Assembly: GCA_947457935.1 (NCBI GenBank)
Contig: CANGXP010000006.1
Location: 1 to 61,309 of the forward strand
Reading direction: 5' to 3'
Origin: Alphaproteobacteria bacterium
Lineage (GTDB): Bacteria; Pseudomonadota; Alphaproteobacteria; JAJTHO01; CANGXP01
Length of the DNA stretch: 61,309 bases
Below are positions 38,465-52,083 of the stretch, piece after piece. Under the pieces are notes generated by a model that had not been told where the DNA came from, searched no databases, and saw only the letters and a program-made list of their open reading frames with translations. A program made the position numbers and the translations under genes. The stretch's first letter is position 1. Every line of letters starts with the position of its first letter.

Positions 38465-38725
38465 ATGACCATACATTCAACCATAACACTACCCTCAACA
38501 TTAACGATTGAAAACGTCATGACGTTAACAGCGTTACTGCGGGATGCAAACGTACACGGAGACCCCTCTGTATCATGCGACGCAAGCAGCGTTGAGCTAA
38601 TGACGACGCCTGCAGCACAAGCATTGCTGGCGTGTCATAAAAATACCCCGCTTCAATTTGATAACCCTAGTCCCGCTTTCACCGCAACCTTGGCTGCGTT
38701 GGGCATGACCACCGCTTTTGCATAA
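38465..38725 (+). CDS. STAS-like small protein of the chemotaxis operon
   Basis: 86-aa soluble protein. The pattern of a beta strand (ITLPSTLTIENVMTLTALLRD), a second strand (SVSCDASSVELMTTPAAQALLACHK) and a terminal helix fits a small STAS fold of the kind that opens many alphaproteobacterial che operons. The usual DSSGL motif is replaced by ELMTTPAAQ, and Thr or Ser there could still be a phosphorylation site. It ends 13 bp before cheY. Confidence 0.7.
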   Translation: MTIHSTITLPSTLTIENVMTLTALLRDANVHGDPSVSCDASSVELMTTPAAQALLACHKNTPLQFDNPSPAFTATLAALGMTTAFA

Positions 38726-38738
38726 CGGAGAATACACC

Positions 38739-39107
38739 ATGGCAAAAAAAGCACTCACCGTTGACGATTCACGCACCATGCGCGAGATGGTTTCCTTCAC
38801 CCTAAAAGGGGCGGGCTATGAGGTCGTAGAGGCCGAAGATGGCAAAGATGCCCTTGTTAAAATCGCCGCCAATAAAGTGGATGTGGTGATCACCGATTTG
38901 AACATGCCCAACATGAATGGGTTTGAGCTGATTCGTGCATTGCGGGCTGATAGTAATTATAAATTTACGCCCATTTTGATGCTGACCACCGAAGGCGATG
39001 GCAGCAAAAAAGAAGAAGGCAAAGCGGCGGGTGCAACAGGCTGGATTGTCAAGCCATTTAACCCAGAAAAATTGGTTGAAGTGGTTAAAAAGGTTTGCCC
39101 ATGCTAA
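38739..39107 (+). CDS. cheY: Chemotaxis response regulator CheY
   Basis: 122-aa receiver domain with no output domain: TVDDSRTMREMVSFTLKGAG at the start, the phosphoacceptor aspartate in VVITDLNMPNMNG, the switch threonine in MLTTEGDG, and the lysine in GWIVKPFNPEKL. This is the diffusible signal to the flagellar switch. The ATG at 38739 has GGAG eight bases upstream; an upstream reading would overlap the STAS gene. Confidence 0.97.
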   Translation: MAKKALTVDDSRTMREMVSFTLKGAGYEVVEAEDGKDALVKIAANKVDVVITDLNMPNMNGFELIRALRADSNYKFTPILMLTTEGDGSKKEEGKAAGATGWIVKPFNPEKLVEVVKKVCPC

Positions 39108-39271
39108 GTGCAACATCCCTCAACCCCACCACAAAAAATATCCCCATTTTAGGATGGATTGGTCAGTTGTGGGCAGATGACACGCTGGAAACGCTTGCGG
39201 AAATTACGCAACCGCTTTCGTTGCCGTTGCCAAGATTCTTGAGGGAGGTGTTCCATGACAACGAACACTGA
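39101..39271 (+). CDS. Small 56-aa ORF between cheY and cheA
   Basis: The ATG overlaps the end of cheY by 7 bp, and the stop lies 14 bp inside cheA, so the ORF exactly fills the cheY-cheA gap. The product begins MLSATSLNPTTKNI, has the central segment WIGQLWADDTLETLAEI, and ends VFHDNEH. It has no family I recognise. The double overlap favours translation; otherwise the gap of 147 bp would be unusually long for this operon. Confidence 0.5.
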   Translation: MLSATSLNPTTKNIPILGWIGQLWADDTLETLAEITQPLSLPLPRFLREVFHDNEH

Positions 39272-41264
39272 TCTTGAACGCTTCAAACAAAGCTACATCA
39301 ACGAAAGCCTTGAATTGCTGGCGGAGATGGAAGAGCGGTTGTTGGATCTAGATCCTGAAACAGCCGATAACGAACAACTGAATGCGATTTTTCGCTGTGC
39401 CCATTCCATTAAAGGCGGGTCGGGCGCGTTTGGCTTAACCTATATCACCAATTTCACCCACGTGCTGGAAGCGTTATTAGATGCGATGCGCGAAGGCAAA
39501 GTTTTGCCAACACGGGATGCTGTCGATATTTTGCTCAAAGCAACAGACATTGTGCATCAGATGGTGCGTGCCGCGCAAGAGGGCACAACGCCCGCTACAA
39601 ACTTAGGCAAGGATATTTTAGAAAAACTGCAACAGTATGCCAGTCATACCCCCACCACAGAAACGGCTGCTTACGGTCTTTTTGACGACACCCCTGTTAC
39701 GGGAAACGCTGACCATACAACGTATTCTATTGTTTTTGCACCACACCTCAACCTGTTTGCTACAGGCAATGAACCGCTGTTGTTGCTGCAAGAGCTCGCA
39801 AAATTGGGTGATGCCACCATTGTTGCAGACACAACAAAAGTACCGAACTTAGACGCCCTTGATCCTGAGCAATGTTACTTGTCATGGAACATCACCCTTG
39901 TGACAGACAAATCCGTTGCCGCTATTAAAGAGGTGTTTGAGTTTGTTGAAGATGCGTGTGATCTGAGCGTTACAGCACAAGAAAAAGAAATACGTGTCGC
40001 TCGTGCGCCTACTGTAGACACGCAGAGCACAACAGAAACAGTCGTTAAAAAAGACGCGCAAAATGAGGCTAAAACCCCCGCCAGCGGCACCATTCGCGTT
40101 GACTTAGAAAAAGTTGATAAGCTCGTCAACATGGTGGGCGAATTGGTGATCACCGAGGCGATGGTGCGGATGCAAACGCGCACGCTGCCACAAGAACAAT
40201 TCTCTGATTTATTGCGCGGCGTTGATGCCCTTGCGCACCACATGCGGGAACTGCAAGAGGTGGTGATGTCCGTGCGGATGCAGCCTGTCAAATCTATTTT
40301 CTCCCGCTTGCCGCGTATTGTGCGCGATATTTCTACACAGCTTGGCAAAGACATTCGCCTTGTGGTTTCAGGCGAAAGCACCGAGGTGGACAAAACAGTG
40401 ATCGAACAGTTGGGCGATCCCCTTACCCATATGATTCGTAACTCGGCAGATCATGGGATTGAAACCCCCGAAAAACGTCTTGCTGCAGGCAAACCTGCAC
40501 AAGGCACGATTCATCTTTCGGCGGAACATCGCGGCGGACGGATTGTCATTGAAATTAGCGATGATGGCGCAGGCATTAACCGCGAGAAAGTGCTAAAAAA
40601 AGCCTTGGAAAAGGGCTTGGTTGCGGGCGATGGCAGTAGTCTCTCCCCCCAAGAAATTGACAACTTAATTTTCCATGCAGGATTTTCAACCGCTGATGTT
40701 GTCTCCAACATTTCAGGGCGTGGCGTGGGCATGGATGTGGTACGCCGCAACATTGAAGGCATGGGCGGGTTGGTGCAGGTGGTCAATCGCCCGTCACAAG
40801 GCTCAACTTTTACGGTCTCCCTGCCTTTAACGCTCGCTATTCTTGATGGCATGATTGTGCGGGTGGGCAATGAAAATTATATCATCCCGATTACGAGTAT
40901 TATTGAGACGCTCCGCCCGAAACAGGGCGAAGTGCGGCACGTTGAGGGGCACAAGGATGTGCTGAACGTGCGGGGGGAATTTATCCCCGTTATTTATCTC
41001 TATCAACTTTTCGGCATTCAAAATGCGGAGGCTGAACCCAGCCGTGCGCTGATTGTATTGGTGGAAAGCCGCAAAGGCAAAATGGGCATCGTGGTTGATG
41101 AATTGGTGGGACAACAACAAGTTGTCATCAAAAGTTTATCCGCGAACGCTGACCCTGTGGAGGGCATTTCAGGCGCAACCATTTTGGGTGATGGGAAAGT
41201 GTCCCTCATCTTGGAAGTGAATGATTTGCAGGGATTGGTGGGAAGAGAACAGAAGGCAGCATAA
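39255..41264 (+). CDS. cheA: Chemotaxis histidine kinase CheA
   Basis: 669 aa with the full set of CheA domains. P1 has the phosphorylated H50 in FRCAHSIKGGSGAFG. A middle region of about 160-260 is P2-like. P3 dimerisation covers about 280-345 (IRVDLEKVDKLVNMVGELVITEA). The P4 ATPase has its N box in HMIRNSADHGIETP, ISDDGAGINREKV, and GRGVGMDVVRRNIEGMGG. P5 at the C terminus (about 525-660) is CheW-like. It donates phosphate to CheY and CheB, and possibly to the REC-containing protein at 49499. Confidence 0.98.
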   Translation: MTTNTDLERFKQSYINESLELLAEMEERLLDLDPETADNEQLNAIFRCAHSIKGGSGAFGLTYITNFTHVLEALLDAMREGKVLPTRDAVDILLKATDIVHQMVRAAQEGTTPATNLGKDILEKLQQYASHTPTTETAAYGLFDDTPVTGNADHTTYSIVFAPHLNLFATGNEPLLLLQELAKLGDATIVADTTKVPNLDALDPEQCYLSWNITLVTDKSVAAIKEVFEFVEDACDLSVTAQEKEIRVARAPTVDTQSTTETVVKKDAQNEAKTPASGTIRVDLEKVDKLVNMVGELVITEAMVRMQTRTLPQEQFSDLLRGVDALAHHMRELQEVVMSVRMQPVKSIFSRLPRIVRDISTQLGKDIRLVVSGESTEVDKTVIEQLGDPLTHMIRNSADHGIETPEKRLAAGKPAQGTIHLSAEHRGGRIVIEISDDGAGINREKVLKKALEKGLVAGDGSSLSPQEIDNLIFHAGFSTADVVSNISGRGVGMDVVRRNIEGMGGLVQVVNRPSQGSTFTVSLPLTLAILDGMIVRVGNENYIIPITSIIETLRPKQGEVRHVEGHKDVLNVRGEFIPVIYLYQLFGIQNAEAEPSRALIVLVESRKGKMGIVVDELVGQQQVVIKSLSANADPVEGISGATILGDGKVSLILEVNDLQGLVGREQKAA

Positions 41265-41353: not shown

Positions 41354-41866
41354 ATGACCGATACTTACGACAAAAACCGTGCTGATGGCACGCAAACCAT
41401 CGAGAACGCAGGGATTCCCCAAGAATTCTTGAGCTTCACGGTGGGCGACGCAGAATATGGCGTGGATATTATGATTGTCCGCGAGATTAAAGGCTGGACG
41501 GAGGTAACGCGCCTACCAAACTCGGTGGAGTATATGCGCGGCGTGATGAACCTGCGCGGGCTGATTATCCCCATTTTTGACTTAAGAGCGCGCTTTAACC
41601 AAGGCATGACAGAAGCACACGCAAAAAACGTGGTGATTATCATGGCCGTGGGCGAACGCAATATCGGGCTGTTGGTTGACACGGTTTCCGACATTCTGAC
41701 CGTCAACAACGATGACATCAAGCCCGCTCCCGAGACAGAAACAGCAAACGATGCCGACTATATCAACGGGTTAATCTCGCTGGAAAATCGCATGGTGGTG
41801 CTGCTCAATATCGAGAATTTGTTTGAAACGAAAATCATCGAAAGAAGTATCGCTGAAGCCGCCTAA
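41354..41866 (+). CDS. cheW: Chemotaxis coupling protein CheW
   Basis: 170-aa adaptor that links receptors to CheA. Motifs include FTVGDAEYGVDIMIVREIKGW, LPNSVEYMRGVMNLRGLIIPIFDLRARF (core YMRGVMNLRG) and a C-terminal YINGLISLENRMVVLLNIENLF. AAGGAG stands before the ATG. It is separated from cheA by the hairpin repeat and followed 40 bp later by a receptor gene. Confidence 0.97.
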   Translation: MTDTYDKNRADGTQTIENAGIPQEFLSFTVGDAEYGVDIMIVREIKGWTEVTRLPNSVEYMRGVMNLRGLIIPIFDLRARFNQGMTEAHAKNVVIIMAVGERNIGLLVDTVSDILTVNNDDIKPAPETETANDADYINGLISLENRMVVLLNIENLFETKIIERSIAEAA

Positions 41867-41906: not shown

Positions 41907-44249
41907 ATGTCTAAACTACCTATTCGCGTCAAATTGACCGCACTTTTTCTCGCCTTTGGCATGTTGCCATTGATAGCGTTTATGCCAGTTCTTTTTGGCA
42001 AATTGAATCACATTAAGGAAACCATCACGATTGAAAAACAGGAAGTCACAGCGCGTGAAGCAATCGTGTTACAGGATTTAAAGGAATTAAAAGAAATGCT
42101 TTGGCAAGACGTTGCAATTTCTGCCCTTGTAATTACAGGTTTGGGGATTATCATCGGTGGTTTTGCCGCAAGACCGTTACGTAAAGCAACGCTTGCCGCA
42201 CAAAAACTTGCTACGGGTGATTACTTAGTAGATGTTGGAAATCCTAAACGGGGAGATGAATTTGGAGACGTTTCGCGTGCTCTTAAAGATCTCTCGTTAG
42301 CTGTTGAAAAGAGTGTGCGTCTTGAAACAATGATTACCAGCTTATCTACGCCTGTGATGATGTGTGACAAAGATTTTAACATCACCTACGCGAACGATAT
42401 TTCTATTGCAACGCTTCGTACGCTAGAAAAACTGTTGCCTGTGAAAGCCGATAACATTGTTGGTGCTAATATTGATATTTTCCACAAAACACCTAGTCAC
42501 CAACGCGGTATGCTGCAAAGTATGAAATTGCCCCACAAGGCAGAATTTATGATTGGGGATGAGTGGTTATCGCTTACTGCTAACCCATTGCCAAGCCGTG
42601 ATGGCAGTTTCCAAGGGTCGTACGTGGATTGGAATGTGGTAACAGAACGCAAACGTGCGGATGAACAAAACACCGATTACGCAGGAAAAATGGCGGCAAT
42701 CAGCAAAACCCAAGCCGTGATTGAATTCAACATGGATGGCAGCATCATCACCGCTAACGAGAATTTCTTGCAAGCGATGATGTACAACTCTTTGGATGAA
42801 ATCAAAGGCAAACACCACAGCATGTTCGCAGATGCAGCCTACCGTGCAAGCCCCGACTATAAAGCATTCTGGGAATCCTTAAACCGTGGTGAAGCCAACA
42901 ACGGCGAATTCAAACGCATCAAGAAAAACGGGGAGGTCATCTGGTTACAAGCCATTTATAACCCGATTGCGGATGCGAACGGTAAGTTTGTGAAAGTCGT
43001 GAAATACGCAAGCGACATTAGCAAGCAAAAACTCGCCATCGAAGAAATCAACAACCTGATTGCCGGTGTGATCAAAGGCGATCTCTCTAACCGCATTAAC
43101 ACAGCGCCTTTCGAAGGTTTCTATCGCGATATGACAGACAGCATGAACAAGCTGATGGAAAGTGTTGATGCGCCTGTAAGTGCAGCCGTGGATGTTTTAA
43201 ATAGCCTGTCAGAAGGGGATTTAACACGCAGCATGGCGGGTGAGTATCAAGGTGCCTTCAATGAAATGCAAACCGCTCTGAACGGTACTATTGAGAAACT
43301 GTTTGGGATGGTGAAGCAGATTATCAAAGCGGCGCAAGCCGTGAATTCTGCCGCTACAGAAATTTCTTCTGGCAGCACAGACTTATCACAACGCACAGAA
43401 GAGCAAGCCTCTTCTTTGGAAGAAACAGCGGCATCGATGGAAGAAATCACGGGTACGGTGAAGCAAAACTCACAAAATGCCTCAACAGCAAACGAGTTGT
43501 CTGGTAAAGCCAGCGCCGTTGCCGCAGAAGGCGGACGTGTGGTGGATGAAGCGGTGAGTGCGATGGGCAGCATTGAACGCTCATCACAAAAAATCTCTGA
43601 CATCATCGGCGTGATTGATGAAATCGCGTTCCAAACCAACCTTCTTGCACTGAACGCGGCTGTTGAAGCAGCGCGTGCAGGCGAAGTGGGCAAAGGTTTT
43701 GCGGTGGTAGCTTCAGAAGTACGCTCTCTTGCAGGTCGTTCGGCTTCCGCTTCTAAAGAGATTAAAGCCCTCATCAGTGAAAGTGCGCAACAAGTAAAAA
43801 CAGGGGCGCAACTGGTTAACCAATCGGGTGAAAGCCTGAAAGGGATTGTCGATTCCGTGAAGCAAGTCACCAACATTGTTGCGGAAATTGCGTCAGCCAG
43901 CGCAGAACAGGCAACGGGAATTGATGAAATCAACACCGCCATTACGCAAATGGATGAAGTAACCCAGCAAAACGCAGCTTTGGTGGAAGAAAACACCGCC
44001 GCTGCACAATCCATGGTGGAACAAGCACAAGAGCTAGAACGCCTCATGAGCTTCTTCACCATTGAGGAAGGCAATGAGCGCAACAGCGCGTTCACGCCAA
44101 AAGCTGTGGTGAAAAGCAAGCCAGCACTCGTGCAAAAGGCGGCGAATACATCCAGCAATCGCCCTGTTAAGGCACCTGCCAAACCTGCGAAAAAGGTTGC
44201 AAGCGGTGGTGGCCGTGGTGGGTATGATGCAGGGTGGGAGGAGTTCTAA
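41907..44249 (+). CDS. PAS-containing methyl-accepting chemotaxis protein
   Basis: 780-aa receptor. Two N-terminal membrane helices (about 8-30 and 65-88) have a loop too short for a periplasmic sensor. HAMP-like and two PAS domains follow (about 130-250 and 262-375; NADIA-type segments such as [21 protein letters not shown] and [17 protein letters not shown]). A long MCP domain has the tip [24 protein letters not shown]. The C terminus ends GWEEF, close to the NWETF tether for CheR/CheB docking. The sensor is therefore probably internal (redox or light via PAS cofactors); the first PAS lacks obvious heme or flavin markers. It is the principal receptor encoded inside the operon. Confidence 0.95.
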
Positions 44250-44531: not shown

Positions 44532-45380
44532 ATGTCAAACTCCGCCCTTTCCGCTGACCGTGAATTCGCTTTTAGCGAGGATAACTTCCGTTTTCTTACT
44601 CAATGGGTGGGTAAAAACACAGGGATTGTACTTGCGGATCACAAACGCGATATGGTCTATTCGCGTCTTGCAAGACGGCTGCGTGCGTTGCAGCTTGATA
44701 GCTTTGCCGCGTATTGCGCCCTCATTCAAAGCCCAGAAGGCGAGGCAGAGTTGGGAAATTTGGTGAATGCCATCACCACGAATTTGACGCATTTCTTCCG
44801 TGAGGGGCATCACTTTGAGCATTTGCTACAAGTGCTGCAAGGCATTGCGGCAAAACCGAACAGCCTTAAGAAATTACGCTTATGGTCAGCAGGGTGTTCA
44901 ACAGGCATGGAAGCCTATTCCATCGCGATGACACTGCAAGAAGCCCTCCCCAATATCAATCAATGGGATGTCAAAATTCTGGCAACCGATATTGATACCA
45001 ACGTCTTGGAAACAGGACAACGGGGCGAATATGCTCTTTCGGCATTGGAAGATGTGCCCGCGGCCTATCAGAAAAAATATCTTGAGCCAGTAAAGGCAGG
45101 TGCCAGTAAGGGACAAGTGAACGAGGCAACCCGCGCATTGGTTTCTTTTAAGCGCCTAAACCTGTTAGAATCGTGGCCGATGCAAGGCAAGTTTGATGTG
45201 ATTTTTTGCCGCAATGTGGTGATTTATTTTGACAAACCGACACAACGCAAAATGTTTGGGCGCATGGCGGAGTTGATGCAACCCAAGGGCTGGCTTTATA
45301 TTGGTCATTCGGAAAATCTGTTTAATATTTGCGATGCGTTTACCTTAGAGGGGCGGACGATTTACCGTAAAAACACATGA
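44532..45380 (+). CDS. cheR: Chemotaxis protein methyltransferase CheR
   Basis: Methylates glutamates of MCPs with S-adenosylmethionine. The N-terminal helical domain (NFRFLTQWVGKNTGIVLAD) is followed by the SAM fold with LRLWSAGCSTGMEAYSIAM, a DIDTNVLETGQRGEY segment, and FDVIFCRNVVIYFDKPTQRKM. 282 aa is normal. The last codons overlap the start of cheD (ATGA). Confidence 0.97.
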   Translation: MSNSALSADREFAFSEDNFRFLTQWVGKNTGIVLADHKRDMVYSRLARRLRALQLDSFAAYCALIQSPEGEAELGNLVNAITTNLTHFFREGHHFEHLLQVLQGIAAKPNSLKKLRLWSAGCSTGMEAYSIAMTLQEALPNINQWDVKILATDIDTNVLETGQRGEYALSALEDVPAAYQKKYLEPVKAGASKGQVNEATRALVSFKRLNLLESWPMQGKFDVIFCRNVVIYFDKPTQRKMFGRMAELMQPKGWLYIGHSENLFNICDAFTLEGRTIYRKNT

Positions 45381-46030
45381 GTGTAAAGCTTGCCCCACCC
45401 GCCAATGAATCGGATCGCCGTCGCACGCCACCCGCAAAAATGCCCTTTGCGGCGAAGGACAACAAGCGCTATTTCGACGAGAAAGAGGGCGTGACGGTTG
45501 TCAAATTGTTCTCTGGCGATTGGCATGTATCAGGCACAGAACCTGAAATGCTCATGACAATTCTTGGCTCTTGTGTTGCGGCCTGCATTCGCGACCCCCT
45601 ATTGGGCATTGGCGGCATGAACCATTTCCTCCTTCCAGGGGATGAAAGTAGCTGCATGAACAGCGATGCCGCACGCTATGGTGTGTTTGCCATGGAAAGC
45701 CTTATCAACGGGTTATTGAAAGCAGGGGCACGCAAAGAACGTCTGGAAATCAAAGTGTTTGGCGGCGGCAATGTGATTAATAATTCTGCCTGCATTGGCT
45801 CGAAAAATGCCGCATTTATCAGGGAATTTCTCCGTAAAGAAGGATTGCGCATCGCCAGCGAAGATCTAGAAGGGGATCTCCCCCGCAAGCTGCATTATTA
45901 CACGCAAACAGGCAAAGTGATGATGCGAAAATTGAATCGTCAAGCGGATACGAAAGTTATCATGGAAGAACAACGTTTCAAAGAAAGCTTAACGATCAAA
46001 CCGCCTGTTGGCGATATTGAGTTATTTTAA
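45377..46030 (+). CDS. cheD: Chemoreceptor glutamine deamidase CheD
   Basis: Deamidates receptor glutamines. Core motifs of CheD are present: the catalytic cysteine in TILGSCVAACIRDPLLGIGGMNHFLLP with the following histidine, DAARYGVFAMESLINGLLKAGA, and the KVFGGGNVI segment. An N-terminal extension of about 40 residues and a C-terminal tail that contains GKVMMRKL make it 217 aa. It overlaps cheR by 4 bp and is 9 bp from cheB. CheD can also help CheC-type phosphatases, but no cheC is present here. Confidence 0.95.
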   Translation: MSVKLAPPANESDRRRTPPAKMPFAAKDNKRYFDEKEGVTVVKLFSGDWHVSGTEPEMLMTILGSCVAACIRDPLLGIGGMNHFLLPGDESSCMNSDAARYGVFAMESLINGLLKAGARKERLEIKVFGGGNVINNSACIGSKNAAFIREFLRKEGLRIASEDLEGDLPRKLHYYTQTGKVMMRKLNRQADTKVIMEEQRFKESLTIKPPVGDIELF

Positions 46031-46039
46031 GGGGGCATT

Positions 46040-47095
46040 ATGAAAAAAATCACTGTCCTTGTTGTTGATGATTCAGCGTTTATTCGCCAGATGTTCAGGG
46101 ATATTCTGAATAGCCAACCTGATATTGAGGTGCTTGACACAGCGCACGATCCGCTCGATGCGCGGGAAAAAATTAAACAGCTTAACCCTGATGTGGTGAC
46201 GCTGGATATTGAAATGCCGAAAATGGACGGTCTGTCCTTTTTAGAGAAAATCATGACGCTGCGCCCGATGCCTGTCATTATGGCCTCATCGCTCACCCAA
46301 AAAGGGGCAGAGGCAACGCTTCGTGCGTTAGAATTAGGCGCGGTGGATTATGTCAGTAAACCCACAACGGGGCAAAATCGCCAAACGATTGGGGCGTTAG
46401 CTGAAGAACTTGCTGAAAAGGTGCGTATGGCAGCCAAAGCTAAGGTGCATCATCATAAAGCCCGTTTAGTGCCCGCTACGCCGCAACTTGTGTCCTATAA
46501 TCCTGCGGGCGTGCCTGCAAAACGGATTATTGCCATCGGCGCCTCCACAGGCGGGGTGGAAGCATTGCGCGAAATTTTTGTGCGCTTGCCCGCCAATGTG
46601 CCCCCCATCATCATGACACAACATATGCCCGAACATTTCACCGCCTCCTTTGCAGCGCGCCTGAATAGTCTTTCCGCCGTCACTGTGATGGAAGCCAAAA
46701 ATCACCAACGCCTTGAAAAAGGGCATGCCTATTTAGCGGCAGGGAATGTGCATTTAAAGCTTGCCCGTGTGGGGGGAGAGTATGTTTGTAAAGTAGAAGA
46801 TGGTGCGCCTGTGAGCGGGCATCGTCCCTCTGTCGATGTGTTATTTCATTCTGTTGTGGAAGCAGCAGGAAAAGAGGCGGTTGGTGTTATTCTCACAGGC
46901 ATGGGCAAGGATGGTGCCTTGGGTTTAAAAGCCATGCGGGATATTGGATGCCATACGTTAGGACAAAATGAAGCAACCTGTGTGGTTTATGGGATGCCGC
47001 AAGCAGCCTTTAAAGTAGGAGCGGTGGAAAAAGAATTGCCCCTTACAGAGATACCAGCGGCAATGTTGAAATTGTGCGAGCTGGGAGGGGCATGA
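46040..47095 (+). CDS. cheB: Chemotaxis methylesterase CheB
   Basis: Receiver domain with phosphoacceptor D56 in VVTLDIEMPKMDG and lysine in YVSKPTTG, a linker, and the C-terminal methylesterase with the catalytic serine in IAIGASTGGVEAL, histidine in MTQHMPEHFT and aspartate in TGMGKDGALGLKAM. It removes methyl groups from receptors. 351 aa is normal. The next gene begins one base after its stop. Confidence 0.97.
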   Translation: MKKITVLVVDDSAFIRQMFRDILNSQPDIEVLDTAHDPLDAREKIKQLNPDVVTLDIEMPKMDGLSFLEKIMTLRPMPVIMASSLTQKGAEATLRALELGAVDYVSKPTTGQNRQTIGALAEELAEKVRMAAKAKVHHHKARLVPATPQLVSYNPAGVPAKRIIAIGASTGGVEALREIFVRLPANVPPIIMTQHMPEHFTASFAARLNSLSAVTVMEAKNHQRLEKGHAYLAAGNVHLKLARVGGEYVCKVEDGAPVSGHRPSVDVLFHSVVEAAGKEAVGVILTGMGKDGALGLKAMRDIGCHTLGQNEATCVVYGMPQAAFKVGAVEKELPLTEIPAAMLKLCELGGA

Positions 47096-47096
47096 A

Positions 47097-49187
47097 ATGA
47101 GTATTGCTTCTAAACAGCATAATGCGACAGAAAAAGAAATCACGACTATTCTGCAAGAACTTGCCACCCATAGCGCGAAAAGTATTTCTCGGCTTGAAGA
47201 ACTGCAACAAGAGCTTCCTGCTGCCGCTTGTGTTGTGGAGCAAGCGGCGTTGAAATTAAGCGAGCAATTTAAAACGCTCACCACAGCAGCACAGGAACAG
47301 CGTGATATTTTACAAGACATGACGGCAGTAAAAAAATCTTTTACAATTGATGATGAAAAATTGGTTTTGAAAGACTTTGTTAGCTTGCTGAGCAAAACGC
47401 TCAATGAAGCAATCGAGCAAATATTATTCATCTCCAAGAAGTCTATGCTCATGGTGTATAGCATGATTGATGCGATTAAGAATTTGGATAAAATTGACAG
47501 GTTCGCAAAAAATATTCAACGCATCACCATGCAAACAAATACGCTTGCAGTGAATGCGAAAATTGAAGCATCAAAAGTTGGCGAAATAGGTGGTGGGTTT
47601 CTTGTTGTTGCTGGAGAAGTTTATGGCATTTCTACAGAAATAGCGGAGCTTTCAGAAAGAATTCACAACCGTATTCATCATATCAAAGGAACTACACAGA
47701 CAAGTTATAAAATATTACAAGAGGTGGCAACGATTGATATTAGCGATAATATTGTTGTGAAGCAGCGTCTCAATAATTTTATGGAAAACCTCTTAGAGCA
47801 GAGTGATAGCTTCCAAGAAATGATACAATCTGCCGCCATGACAGCAGGCGCACTCTCTGAAACAATTTCTTCCATGGTTATGGAGCTGCAATTTCAAGAT
47901 CGTAATTCCCAGATATGTGAGAATTCTGTGGGGATTATATCGCAGCATGGTGCTTCTTTAAAAACGTGGCTCTTGCATTTACAGGGCTATAGTGCGCAAA
48001 AATCAACGGGTTCATTACAAAAATATTTAGTGCAGCAAGGGGGGATACCACAACCCCCAAAAACATGGTTTGGGCGGCGAAAATCAACGCCTTCGGCGGT
48101 AATATCAGAAATTCATACACCGCCAGAAACAGACAATAAAGAAATGAATGCAGCAGCGTTGCTGCAAGATTTTCAAGCCTTAAAGCAATCAGAAGGCATA
48201 GCACTGCAGTTGTTAACAGAGTTGTTGCCTGAATCTGCGAGCACTGTAAAAGCCAGCACAATTAAACTAAACCAAAATTTCCAAGAATTATTAGCAGGGG
48301 CAGTGCAGCAGGGAAAAATTATTCAGCAAATGGCGGATACGGCGGGAATGTTGAAATCGGGGAATCGGGAAGTTACCCTGCAAGACTTCACCAACATGCT
48401 CTATGAAATGATTGATTATTCGGTAGAGAAAATTTTATTCGTCGCAAAAAAAATCATGTCCATGCTGATGAGTATGGATGCCTCGATAGAGGCGTTAAAA
48501 GAGATACAGCAGTTTACAGGTGGCATTCAAAAAATTACCGCCAAAACAAACATTTTGGCAATGAACGCAACCATTGAAGCAATGCGTGCGGGACAAAATG
48601 GCTTAAGTTTTGCTGTTGTTGCAAAAGAGGTGCGTAATATCTCTCTCGCAATATCCTCTCTTTCTTTAGATATTGATCAGACGATTGTTGCCATTTCTAC
48701 AGATATTCAGGCAAGCCATGATATTTTAAAAGAAATTTCGAGCGCAGACATGACAGAAAATATTCTTGTTAAGGAAAAAATTGATGGATGTATGCACGAA
48801 TTATTGCAACAAAATATACGTTTTAAAGACGCTATGTGTGAGGCGGCAATAACCTCCAATAATATTGTGGATAGTATAAAAGATATGTCTGTGGGCATGG
48901 ATTTTTATCGCGGCAACACAGAAAAAGTAGAGTCTATTGTGCATGTTCTGCGGGAGCAATCGAGGCTTCTCACGCGTTTAGATAATGCTATTTTGATGAT
49001 TGTTCCGCAAAGTACCCCTTCTGTAGAAGCTTTAGAGCAACACGCACAAACAATCGCACAGGGCATTAAATTAGGCGACATAAAACAGCGCTATGCAGAA
49101 AAACTGAGTCAGCACGGCATCACCGTCCTTGCCTCTCAGGATGCCAGCACCGCAAGCGCTGCAGAAGATGACATAGAGCTTTTCTAA
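47097..49187 (+). CDS. Soluble tandem MCP-like protein (two signalling halves)
   Basis: 696-aa protein without membrane helices or sensor domain, formed by two homologous halves of about 300 residues (1-300 and 350-650) with 340-residue periodicity. Each half has a membrane-free helical lead-in (LPAAACVVEQAALKLSEQF and LPESASTVKASTIKLNQNF), then an MCP-like hairpin tip (TMQTNTLAVNAKIEASKVG at about 144-162, and TAKTNILAMNATIEAMRAG at 481-499), then a tail (IDISDNIVVKQRLNNFM and ADMTENILVKEKIDGCM). The first half ends LQFQDRNSQ (264-272), reminiscent of the CheZ phosphatase motif FQD-x-TGQ. The second half keeps only a decayed form. It may act as a soluble receptor array, an adaptor, or a phosphatase. 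Confidence 0.85.
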   Translation: MSIASKQHNATEKEITTILQELATHSAKSISRLEELQQELPAAACVVEQAALKLSEQFKTLTTAAQEQRDILQDMTAVKKSFTIDDEKLVLKDFVSLLSKTLNEAIEQILFISKKSMLMVYSMIDAIKNLDKIDRFAKNIQRITMQTNTLAVNAKIEASKVGEIGGGFLVVAGEVYGISTEIAELSERIHNRIHHIKGTTQTSYKILQEVATIDISDNIVVKQRLNNFMENLLEQSDSFQEMIQSAAMTAGALSETISSMVMELQFQDRNSQICENSVGIISQHGASLKTWLLHLQGYSAQKSTGSLQKYLVQQGGIPQPPKTWFGRRKSTPSAVISEIHTPPETDNKEMNAAALLQDFQALKQSEGIALQLLTELLPESASTVKASTIKLNQNFQELLAGAVQQGKIIQQMADTAGMLKSGNREVTLQDFTNMLYEMIDYSVEKILFVAKKIMSMLMSMDASIEALKEIQQFTGGIQKITAKTNILAMNATIEAMRAGQNGLSFAVVAKEVRNISLAISSLSLDIDQTIVAISTDIQASHDILKEISSADMTENILVKEKIDGCMHELLQQNIRFKDAMCEAAITSNNIVDSIKDMSVGMDFYRGNTEKVESIVHVLREQSRLLTRLDNAILMIVPQSTPSVEALEQHAQTIAQGIKLGDIKQRYAEKLSQHGITVLASQDASTASAAEDDIELF

Positions 49188-49199
49188 GGGAATTTTACC

Positions 49200-49502
49200 A
49201 TGCAACTGGAAAAACGAATTGAGGATAATCAATCAACAATTACGATGTCAGGGGGATTTACTTTTTCTGATAACGCGGTGTTTCGAGATGTTATTACGCT
49301 GATTACGAGTAAGGCTTCAAGAGCCGTGAATATTGATGTGCGGGGCTTAAATTTCATTGATTCTTCAGGGTTGGGCATGCTGCTGTTAGCGCGTGACGAA
49401 GCAAAAAATCATAACGTCATTTTGACGCTTTCTAGAGCAGTAGGGCAGGTGCAAGATATGTTCGAGGTGGCACAATTTGAGATTTTATTTGCGATTAAGT
49501 GA
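49200..49502 (+). CDS. STAS-domain anti-sigma-factor-antagonist-like protein
   Basis: 100-aa SpoIIAA/RsbV-type protein. The phospho-acceptor motif FIDSSGLGMLLLARDEA places the modifiable serine at 55 or 56, and the DVRGL strand before it is characteristic. It overlaps the next gene by 4 bp (ATGA), whose first domain is an RsbW-like kinase and whose last is an RsbU-like phosphatase. The two products are thus very likely partners: phosphorylation and dephosphorylation of the STAS serine would switch binding. Confidence 0.92.
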   Translation: MQLEKRIEDNQSTITMSGGFTFSDNAVFRDVITLITSKASRAVNIDVRGLNFIDSSGLGMLLLARDEAKNHNVILTLSRAVGQVQDMFEVAQFEILFAIK

Positions 49503-51445
49503 TGCATGCTTTTCAGCGATATTGCGAGGATAAAGAAGGCGGCAAAACATTGCTGCGTTGTGTGTATGAGGAACAGGCAGACGGATTGCGCGCTGCGCGA
49601 ACATTCACAGAGGATAAAGAAATAGTGCGGTTGTTGGCTTTTAGAACGCCTCCAACACAACAGCAATATAATTTTTTGTTGCCGCATTATGATGTTTTCT
49701 GGGAGCTTGCTATTGGCGAAGATTTGCCCGAAGTATTGCCGCCTTTTAGTCACAAGCCACATCGAGATAAAAGTTTTGTTTTATCCTTAAGGACAGACAC
49801 CTGTCATCGCCTGCCGATTGCGGCAATGGTAACGAAGCATTTGGCACAAAAACTATTGCTCGGGGCTATTGCAAAAAGCCAATTACAAACCGTTCTTCAA
49901 GAAGGTTTAACGAATGCAGTTATCCACGGGAATCTAGAAATTCACCAGCGTTTCCACGCACAAAAAGATTTTTTTGCTTATTGCGAGCATGTAGCATCGT
50001 GTTTGAATGATCCTATGCTTGCAGCAAGGCGAATTGATGTATTTGTCTGTTGGCAAGGGGATGCACTGGAGATTTGTCTCAGTCATGTGGGCGAGCCGTT
50101 TAAGCACTCTATACAACAAGAAAACTCAATATATCAAGGACGTGGTATGGCAGTGATGCAGACGTGTGGTGCCACCGTGCAAATGGAAGACGGGCAAAAA
50201 GACCTTTGCCTGCAACTCAATTTAGGGACTATGGGCGCGACATCAGTTCCGAACAAAAACGAGGCTCTCTATCGTAAAGCTTTTAAAAAGGCGTTATTAG
50301 GGGCGAAAATCTTGTTGGTTGATGATCAAGAGTTTAACATTTTTATTCTACAAGAGATTCTGGATTTACACGATTTACATAACGTGATTATTGCCAAAAA
50401 TGGGCAAGAAGCGTTGGAAAAAACCATTCAGGAACAACCTGATCTTGTGATTATTGATATGTCTATGCCCGTGATGGATGGATATGCCTACTGCACGCAA
50501 GTGCGGCAACTCCCTATATTTACAGCATTGCCCATACTTGCTTTAACGGCACAAACAGATTCTGAACAGCGACGGCTTGCGTTGCAGGTAGGCGCAACGG
50601 ATTTGCTGAGTAAGCCTCTTTACCCAATAGAATTATTCGAGCGCGTGTCAATTCATTTAGAGAAAACCGTGTTGCTCAATAGTTTGGAAGAATACCGAAA
50701 AAATGTTGAGGCTGATTTTGAGGCAGCGCGGGATATGCAAGCGGTATTGATGCCATCAGAAACTTATATTGCCACTATCACAACAGCGTATAATATTGAG
50801 ATAGGCGCGCATTTTGAGCCAAGCTACAACATCGGCGGGGATTTTTGGCATGTATATTCCCTTGATCAACATCGCGTTGCCTGCATAATGATAGACTTTT
50901 CAGGGCATGGCGTGAGTGCCGCCTTGAATGTTTTTCGGCTGCACGCGCTGTTACAAAATCTTCCCCTCAAAGAGTATACAGCAGGAGAGTTACTAACGGT
51001 ATTAAACGCGCAGCTTCATTCTTTGTTATCAGCAGGGCAATTTGCCACAGCCTTTTATAGCATTATTGATACGCGTGCGGATATATTAAGCTATGCCGTG
51101 GCAGCAACGCCCGCGCCGCTTTTATTCACACCCGCGCAACAACGCTATACACATATTCGTGGTTCAGGCGTGCCGTTGGGTGTTGATAAGGATACCGTTT
51201 ATCCAACACAGCAAATGCCGTTTTACAAAGGGGATAGCTTGCTGCTGTATAGTGATGCTCTTATAGAAACGCCTAATCAACATGGCGTGATGATAACGCC
51301 CCAAGATGTTGAAGCGGCTTTTCGCAAGATTTCCTATAACAGTATACCACAAGATTATTTTGCAACGCTCTTAGCGTTGTTTCGCGCCCATGCTGCTGGT
51401 GATATCACCGACGATTTAACCCTTACTTTGTACTCGAGAGTGTAG
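49499..51445 (+). CDS. RsbW-like ATPase / receiver / SpoIIE-type PP2C triple-domain protein
   Basis: 648 aa in three modules. First comes a GHKL kinase of the RsbW type: N box QEGLTNAVIHGN at 134-145 with E135 and N139, and a G-box-like YQGRGMAVM at 212-220; the usual DNG motif is weak at 180-195 (CWQGDALEICLSH). Then a receiver domain (268-390): DD at 275-276, phospho-D320 in VIIDMSMPVMDG, K372 in LLSKPLYP. Last, a PP2C/SpoIIE phosphatase (about 420-648): D448 in IGGDFWHV, D466 in IDFSGHGVSAAL, and D-rich TDDLTLTLYS at the C terminus. It could both phosphorylate and dephosphorylate STAS proteins, with the receiver as the control point. It overlaps the STAS gene (ATGA). Confidence 0.9.
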   Translation: MMHAFQRYCEDKEGGKTLLRCVYEEQADGLRAARTFTEDKEIVRLLAFRTPPTQQQYNFLLPHYDVFWELAIGEDLPEVLPPFSHKPHRDKSFVLSLRTDTCHRLPIAAMVTKHLAQKLLLGAIAKSQLQTVLQEGLTNAVIHGNLEIHQRFHAQKDFFAYCEHVASCLNDPMLAARRIDVFVCWQGDALEICLSHVGEPFKHSIQQENSIYQGRGMAVMQTCGATVQMEDGQKDLCLQLNLGTMGATSVPNKNEALYRKAFKKALLGAKILLVDDQEFNIFILQEILDLHDLHNVIIAKNGQEALEKTIQEQPDLVIIDMSMPVMDGYAYCTQVRQLPIFTALPILALTAQTDSEQRRLALQVGATDLLSKPLYPIELFERVSIHLEKTVLLNSLEEYRKNVEADFEAARDMQAVLMPSETYIATITTAYNIEIGAHFEPSYNIGGDFWHVYSLDQHRVACIMIDFSGHGVSAALNVFRLHALLQNLPLKEYTAGELLTVLNAQLHSLLSAGQFATAFYSIIDTRADILSYAVAATPAPLLFTPAQQRYTHIRGSGVPLGVDKDTVYPTQQMPFYKGDSLLLYSDALIETPNQHGVMITPQDVEAAFRKISYNSIPQDYFATLLALFRAHAAGDITDDLTLTLYSRV

Positions 51446-51447
51446 TT

Positions 51448-52083
51448 ATGTTTATTCAATCTCTTGATCCTGTTGTTCTTGAGCAAATTCTTAACGCCGC
51501 AAATGGTGGTATTGCAATTTCAGACGCGGAACAGCCTGACAACCCTCTAGTTTATGTGAACAGTGGTTTTGAACGGCTAACAGGCTATTTAACTAGTGAA
51601 ATTGAGGGAAGAAATTGCCGTTTTCTGCAAGGTGCAGAAACAGATCCCGCAACGGTACAAAAATTACGGCAATCAATTGAGAAAAAGCAAACAGTGTCTG
51701 TTGATATTGTGAATTACAAAAAAAGTGGAGAGAAATTCTGGAATCATCTTTCCATGGCACCATTATTCGATCGCAATGGGAATGTGCGATATTTTATTGG
51801 TGTGCAATATGACATTACACCGCTGAAAGAAAAGCAGATCGCTCTTGAAGAACAAACGGTATTTTTAGAAGCCGCCCATTTAAAACGAGAAAAAGCGATT
51901 GAAGGGTTAACGAATCACTTGCGTGATTCTATCGCTGCCTGTGATAGCCTATCAACATTGATGTTACTAAAAAAAGACTCAGGGCAAGACAAGATGAATA
52001 TCTATCTTGAGCAGATCAATCACACAGTGCGGCAAATGACCCATGTATTAGATGGTATTTTACTGGACTTGCGCCAAAATTAA
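51448..52083 (+). CDS. LOV-domain blue-light photoreceptor protein
   Basis: 211-aa short LOV protein. Residues 13-125 are a PAS/LOV core in which the flavin-adduct cysteine is C57 in EGRNCRFLQG. The other FMN ligands are also present: N89 (IVNYKKSG), N99 (FWNHLSM) and Q120 (GVQYDIT). This is a complete set for a photoactive LOV domain. The C-terminal 80 residues are helical (coiled coil at about 128-155, then a bundle to 211) and lack a histidine-kinase ATPase, so output must be by contact with another protein. It is the last gene of the chemotaxis operon, 2 bp after the PP2C gene, and convergent with the gcv operon. Confidence 0.93.
   Translation: MFIQSLDPVVLEQILNAANGGIAISDAEQPDNPLVYVNSGFERLTGYLTSEIEGRNCRFLQGAETDPATVQKLRQSIEKKQTVSVDIVNYKKSGEKFWNHLSMAPLFDRNGNVRYFIGVQYDITPLKEKQIALEEQTVFLEAAHLKREKAIEGLTNHLRDSIAACDSLSTLMLLKKDSGQDKMNIYLEQINHTVRQMTHVLDGILLDLRQN

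Follow-up and report, generated by a model that had tools for sequence, protein, structure and literature searches.

The tandem protein and its operon

The window, by which we mean the whole stretch of 61,309 nucleotides analysed here (contig CANGXP010000006.1, Alphaproteobacteria bacterium, GCA_947457935.1), carries a chemotaxis operon in which a soluble protein of two methyl-accepting chemotaxis protein (MCP)-like units is encoded between cheB and the gene for a STAS-domain protein (Table 1). The HATPase, receiver and PP2C domains encoded after the STAS gene are fused into one protein in the window. Directly after the operon lies the gene for a LOV-type PAS protein (51448-52083, NCRFLQ, YtvA-family match at E 1e-47), a possible blue-light input; no LOV match was encountered in the 20 alphaproteobacterial stretches compared, an incidental observation and not a systematic search.

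Table 1. Coordinates of the chemotaxis operon and of the parts of the tandem protein in the window
Feature	Position	Strand	Remarks or evidence
cheY	38718..39107	+	likely source of the phosphorylated substrate
cheA	39255..41264	+	
cheW	41354..41866	+	
PAS/HAMP MCP of the operon	41907..44249	+	C-terminal pentapeptide GWEEF
cheR	44532..45380	+	
cheD	45377..46030	+	product ends GDIELF
cheB	46040..47095	+	
Tandem soluble MCP-like protein gene, 696 aa	47097..49187	+	flanked by cheB and the STAS gene
Half 1, residues 1-335	47097..48101	+	AlphaFold2 model, structural match 2ch7
Half-1 hairpin tip, residues 144-162	47526..47582	+	
LQFQDRNSQ, residues 264-272, CheZ-type DxxxQ (D268, Q272)	47886..47912	+	sequence; D/Q invariant in homologues
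Half 2, residues 336-696: second MCP-like unit and the family's C-terminal region	48102..49184	+	profile score, BLASTP of halves
Half-2 hairpin tip, residues 481-499	48537..48593	+	
DFYRGNTE, residues 602-609, half-2 DxxxQ position, motif lost	48900..48923	+	BLASTP of halves
LGDIKQR, residues 659-665, conserved family C-terminal helix, half 2 only	49071..49091	+	family alignment; hhalign with CheT LADMKKA
C-terminal tail DDIELF	49167..49184	+	[IV][ED][LM]F conserved in almost all homologues
STAS-domain protein	49200..49502	+	CheS-like by domain and neighbourhood
HATPase - receiver - SpoIIE (PP2C) protein	49499..51445	+	third member of the recurring neighbourhood

The MCP signalling profile (PF00015) matched the 696-aa protein in two stretches with 114.6 bits against a cut-off of 34.6 (E 5.9e-33), and matches to signalling domains were the only ones above cut-off in Pfam and NCBIfam, leaving both halves with no ligand-binding or sensor domain; such a domain is not present in every MCP. 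Two MCP-signalling halves without a ligand domain had been predicted originally, and Pfam and a BLASTP comparison of the halves bear this out. The halves aligned without gaps over 252 residues (half-1 residues 33-284; 34% identity, 61% positives, E 4e-45), slightly less than the roughly 300 first proposed, and their tip signatures begin at residues 148 and 485, inside the ranges where the hairpin tips had been placed. The LQFQDRNSQ segment at the end of half 1 is lost in half 2 as anticipated, the corresponding DFYRGNTE having neither the Asp nor the Gln.

Against the profile of the family of homologues described below, whose rows included both halves, the halves scored 401 and 435 bits, and independent homologues were matched at 30% and 28-35% identity with the tandem protein alone as query; the likeness of the halves is therefore not due to chance. 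Duplication during assembly was ruled out as their source, since they are merely 34% identical at the protein level. In a phylogenetic tree, both halves fell into a four-row clade with the members from two other genomes (G112 and G117; support 94/88), and their pairing as sisters was recovered with weak support (57/15). An old tandem copying of a single-unit family member gave rise to the two halves; because they share one four-row clade, it likely, though not provably, took place inside this lineage.

Predicted structure of the first half

An AlphaFold2 model of half 1 built on a 30-row alignment (mean pLDDT 82) comprised a helix (4-77), a beta-hairpin (81-90), an MCP hairpin (91-211) and two further helices (216-265 and 267-303); a full-length model built with no alignment (mean pLDDT 46) was used for the helix map only. 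Structural searches with Foldseek and VIA-align returned MCPs at the top, followed by generic coiled coils, and the Thermotoga maritima MCP 2ch7 matched the model with Z 15.0 over 299 residues. CheZ was absent from the PDB matches listed for this model, which proves nothing either way. Of the two hairpins with which the original prediction had suggested comparison, that of MCPs was predicted, and no CheZ-specific match was listed. The DxxxQ motif lies at the start of the last long predicted helix, just after a helix break at 266/267, and in the sequence alignment to 2ch7 it falls slightly after the AIEEQTAA stretch, on the descending helix. By descent and predicted fold, the tandem protein is an MCP, not a CheZ.

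A single-unit family in chemotaxis operons

Homologues elsewhere are single-unit proteins, mostly of 350-430 aa, with one hairpin each and in some cases an N-terminal membrane segment. A member was detected at E < 1e-30 in 25 of the 385 alphaproteobacterial genomes sampled (own genome counted), Azospirillum being among the alphaproteobacteria that carry the family in chemotaxis operons, and the family is also present in other proteobacterial classes. A narrower family alignment used as contig query returned 32 loci, mostly from Azospirillum, and searching plasmids with a non-alphaproteobacterial homologue gave no match. Among the members read, the tandem form occurred in the window copy only: two long frames (L145 and G386:C13) gave a single family match each and no second match, and L145, when read, had an N-terminal extension and no second hairpin. 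The window's own genome encodes a second paralogue, a single-unit protein of 328 aa outside any che cluster (G000:C18:5583-6569), which has neither DxxxQ nor the tail. The family is widespread and apparently unnamed.

Of 20 alphaproteobacterial stretches, 19 have the family gene within a che operon, usually in the order cheY-cheA-cheW-mcp-cheR-cheD-cheB-[family gene]-STAS-REC/SpoIIE; in the exception (L099), its neighbours were a STAS gene and a short RR/SpoIIE-like match only. Che clusters also made up all 10 stretches from other classes, and in most of these the gene has STAS and SpoIIE-type neighbours. Genes for STAS and receiver-SpoIIE (PP2C) proteins 3' of the family gene (window 49200-51445; L084-L102, L200-L209) form a recurring chemotaxis/partner-switch neighbourhood in several proteobacterial classes. 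Three clusters from outside the alphaproteobacteria (L205, L206 and L209), in which CheA reaches about 940-1100 aa, CheY occurs twice and no CheD was found, likewise have the family gene, with FED-x-x-x-Q and the tail, adjoining STAS and SpoIIE-type genes. In two loci (L091 and L101) the family gene is directly 5' of cheY, and no STAS or SpoIIE gene was found in the stretches read of these two and of L103. In Azospirillum brasilense the family gene, which codes for a single-unit protein of 388 aa, follows cheR-cheD-cheB and precedes a STAS gene, an arrangement matching the operon Che4 (F7), which PMC8429497 describes as the one that has cheD.

An invariant DxxxQ motif in fixed register with the hairpin tip

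The original prediction had named variability of the FQD motif in close homologues as evidence against it; we found the opposite. Asp and Gln were kept in all 51 single-unit homologues read, and the motif Asp followed the tip Glu by 110-112 residues in each of the 49 rows measured, window half 1 among them (111 residues in 45 rows). By comparison, one of 20 ordinary MCPs had any D...Q near this position, and none had xQDxxxQ after the hairpin tip. We found no mention of an MCP with DxxxQ in the literature searched, which consisted mostly of freely available papers.

The match to CheZ (FQDxTGQR) covers precisely D and Q together with F, often also T and R, between variable flanks. In hhalign, the CheZ profile scored 42.7 against the family (P 76%, E 2.4e-5 for a single comparison), aligned on the motif, compared with 21.7 for a reversed control, at most 20.7 for 40 shuffles and 20.8 for ordinary MCPs; with the motif replaced by Ala, the score dropped to 16.4 and the match was gone. 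The motif is therefore significantly CheZ-like. However, the family profile scored 233 against MCPs, PF04344 (the Pfam CheZ profile) did not match the tandem protein at E up to 1, and the likeness to CheZ is limited to the motif, some 11 columns, and might be of convergent or structural origin. The family may best be described as MCP-like, perhaps CheZ- or CheT-like in action, but not as a member of CheZ. For the originally proposed CheZ-like phosphatase, the signature thus held up in both the invariant motif and the profile match above controls, whereas the fold predicted for half 1 is an MCP hairpin, with no CheZ-specific match among those listed.

A true CheZ (NFQDVTGQ...SQDDIDALFDSL) is encoded elsewhere in the same genome, in a flagellar locus where a second cheY is directly followed by cheZ near fliM (G000:C13, L199 6252-7264). 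Each of the two CheY systems in this genome thus has a candidate phosphatase of its own. We ruled out an organism lacking CheZ on the basis of this gene next to the second cheY, contrary to the original statement that no CheZ was visible; the accompanying premise that alphaproteobacteria usually lack CheZ did not hold either, as CheZ was above the Pfam cut-off in 36 of the 45 alphaproteobacterial genomes chosen.

A C-terminal tail shared with CheD, and likeness to CheT

Almost all family members end in [IV][ED][LM]F, L059 and L141 being among the exceptions, the latter ending in TELF. Within the window's operon, the tail of CheD (GDIELF) closely parallels that of the tandem protein (DDIELF), and a recognisable form of the tail was present within a few residues of the end in 16 or 17 of 19 other CheDs of these operons. 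The [IV][ED]LF tail is shared by the window CheD and the CheDs of L084-L103 and L200-L208; the corresponding ends in S. meliloti are PIEFF (CheD) and DFEAF (CheT). Since CheD and the MCP-like protein have this tail in common, their sequences suggest that both use one docking partner. The MCPs of the operons mostly end in WxxF pentapeptides; the family tail has Ile or Val where the established pentapeptides NWETF and GWEEF (PMC7698151) have an aromatic residue. DDIELF, whose DIELF end CheD shares, further resembles the ends of the genome's own CheZ (DDIDALF) and FliM (DEIDSLL).

PMC12654446, citing Agbekudzi et al. 2024 (doi 10.1111/mmi.15303), reports that CheT of Sinorhizobium meliloti has a DxxxQ motif, binds CheR and dephosphorylates one of two CheYs. 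We took the S. meliloti CheT sequence from the public record, identifying it by its position after cheD and its size. A profile of four CheT sequences aligned weakly but collinearly with the family, starting at DxxxQ and running to the final residue, at an hhalign score of 28.4, modestly above ordinary MCPs (21.5), reversed (17.1) and shuffled (at most 16.8) controls; against the C-terminal part of the family alone, the same four sequences scored 30.3 (E 9.7e-5). CheT against CheZ gave 22.6.

A candidate phosphatase in a receptor scaffold

In textbook chemotaxis, receptors control the kinase, and the signal is ended by a separate phosphatase. In CheZ, an Asp and a Gln enter the active site of the receiver, where the Gln places the attacking water. 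In our view, the chances are somewhat better than even that the tandem protein joins a CheY-P phosphatase to a receptor scaffold and docks in the array, with an Asp and Gln acting in the manner of CheZ and a tail directed to an adaptation enzyme. Phosphatase activity, substrate, array docking, the partner of the tail and an intramolecular pseudo-dimer are what we infer for it. The MCP tip would dock the protein into the chemoreceptor array, where it would dephosphorylate a phosphorylated receiver, in the first place its own operon's CheY. The Asp and the Gln would reach into the receiver's active site, and the Gln would position the attacking water, as in CheZ. The tail (-[IV]ELF) resembles the CheR/CheB pentapeptides (DWEEF) as well as the CheT end (DFEAF), and would most likely tie the protein to an adaptation enzyme such as CheR. 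The CheZ-like motif, the CheT likeness and the operon context together make a phosphatase for the operon's CheY-P the most likely function, and because the genome's other CheY has a CheZ adjacent to it, the operon's CheY would be left to the tandem protein. Since the tandem duplication, DxxxQ has been kept in half 1 and the C-terminal helix and tail in half 2. Since each chain holds one complete set of these elements, a single chain would replace a homodimer, probably forming by itself the four-helix bundle made elsewhere by two chains. The originally suggested two-headed bridge between arrays found no direct support: among the members read, the tandem occurs in the window alone, and a single-chain pseudo-dimer accounts at least equally well for the way in which DxxxQ and tail are divided.

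The protein could alternatively be an array scaffold or receptor mimic with no enzyme activity, tuning CheA, in which QFQDRxxQ serves as a structural cap or just as a binding site for a receiver domain. Its sequence and fold are indeed closest to ordinary MCPs (233 compared with 42.7 for CheZ; Z 15.0 to 2ch7), CheZ is already found in most of the genomes, and capping is conceivable for a motif just past the helix break; however, D, Q, F and often T and R match CheZ despite the variable flanks, and ordinary MCPs lack the motif at this place, and we regard this reading as unlikely. As most genomes with the family also have CheZ, phosphatase activity in the family would be redundant or specialised. 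Another reading is a receiver phosphatase whose main substrate is the receiver of the REC-SpoIIE neighbour (or CheB), controlling the STAS/PP2C branch. The family gene adjoins STAS and SpoIIE-type genes in most operons, a neighbourhood also seen in other classes and where the CheA is very different, but in the two loci in which it directly precedes cheY, as in L103, no STAS or SpoIIE gene was found in the stretch read, and we consider this principal substrate quite improbable.

A role as adaptation helper would be compatible with phosphatase activity: the protein would be a soluble tether bringing CheR or CheB (and CheD) to the array, with DxxxQ secondary. The tail common to CheD in almost all these operons and its resemblance to the WxEF ends of the operon MCPs and to the DFEAF of CheR-binding CheT speak for such a role, but the change from an aromatic residue to Ile or Val, the retention of the tail in the three clusters where no CheD was found and its alternative reading as a CheY-binding peptide, like the ends of the genome's own CheZ and FliM, leave it rather unlikely.

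If the phosphatase reading is right, receptor and phosphatase seem to be joined in a single chain whose phosphatase motif keeps a fixed register with the tip. The broader result is the family itself, which combines a conserved receptor hairpin with a phosphatase signature and with the tail that CheD also has, and which is common in chemotaxis operons, including the A. brasilense one matching the much-studied Che4 system; if active, it would show how such pathways terminate their signal. More speculatively, and with considerable doubt, these may be widespread proteobacterial receptor-phosphatases in which the descending MCP helix is a phosphatase in register with the tip, the state of the array could gate termination and STAS and REC-PP2C proteins are partners, CheT being a remnant that has lost the hairpin and the window copy a natural single-chain dimer with active site and tail split between its halves. 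The tandem copy offers a natural experiment on the needs of a single receptor dimer, namely one active site and one tail.

Comparison with known systems

With the MCP signalling domain (PF00015, 2ch7), the tandem protein shares the predicted hairpin across a whole half, the tip sequence and a Pfam match far above cut-off. Unlike MCPs, it has QFQDRxxQ on the descending helix and no ligand domain in either half, its half-1 model differs from 2ch7 in a predicted beta-hairpin (~80-90) and a helix break (212-215), and it ends in IELF instead of a WxxF pentapeptide. CheZ (PF04344) has the same FQDxxxQ, with Asp and Gln equally far apart and likewise placed on the descending limb of a hairpin of helices, whereas the tandem protein is an MCP by descent, with its motif 111 residues from the tip and a DIELF tail in place of a QDDIDALF-type end. 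In CheT, as in the family, DxxxQ is followed by an L-x-[ED]-M-[RK] helix and a short tail ending in F, and the operon is of the same kind, also with CheS (STAS); however, the sequence likeness is weak, and CheT has 124 aa and no MCP hairpin compared with 696 aa and two hairpins. The IcpA-like globin-coupled MCP of S. meliloti (L191) is likewise a soluble MCP adjoining a STAS gene (cheS) in a che operon, but it has a globin sensor domain and neither FQDxxxQ nor an IELF tail in the sequence read. Two receptor signalling units per chain are also found in engineered single-chain chemoreceptors (PMC4692393); those are laboratory-made, whereas the tandem protein is natural and soluble, with diverged halves.
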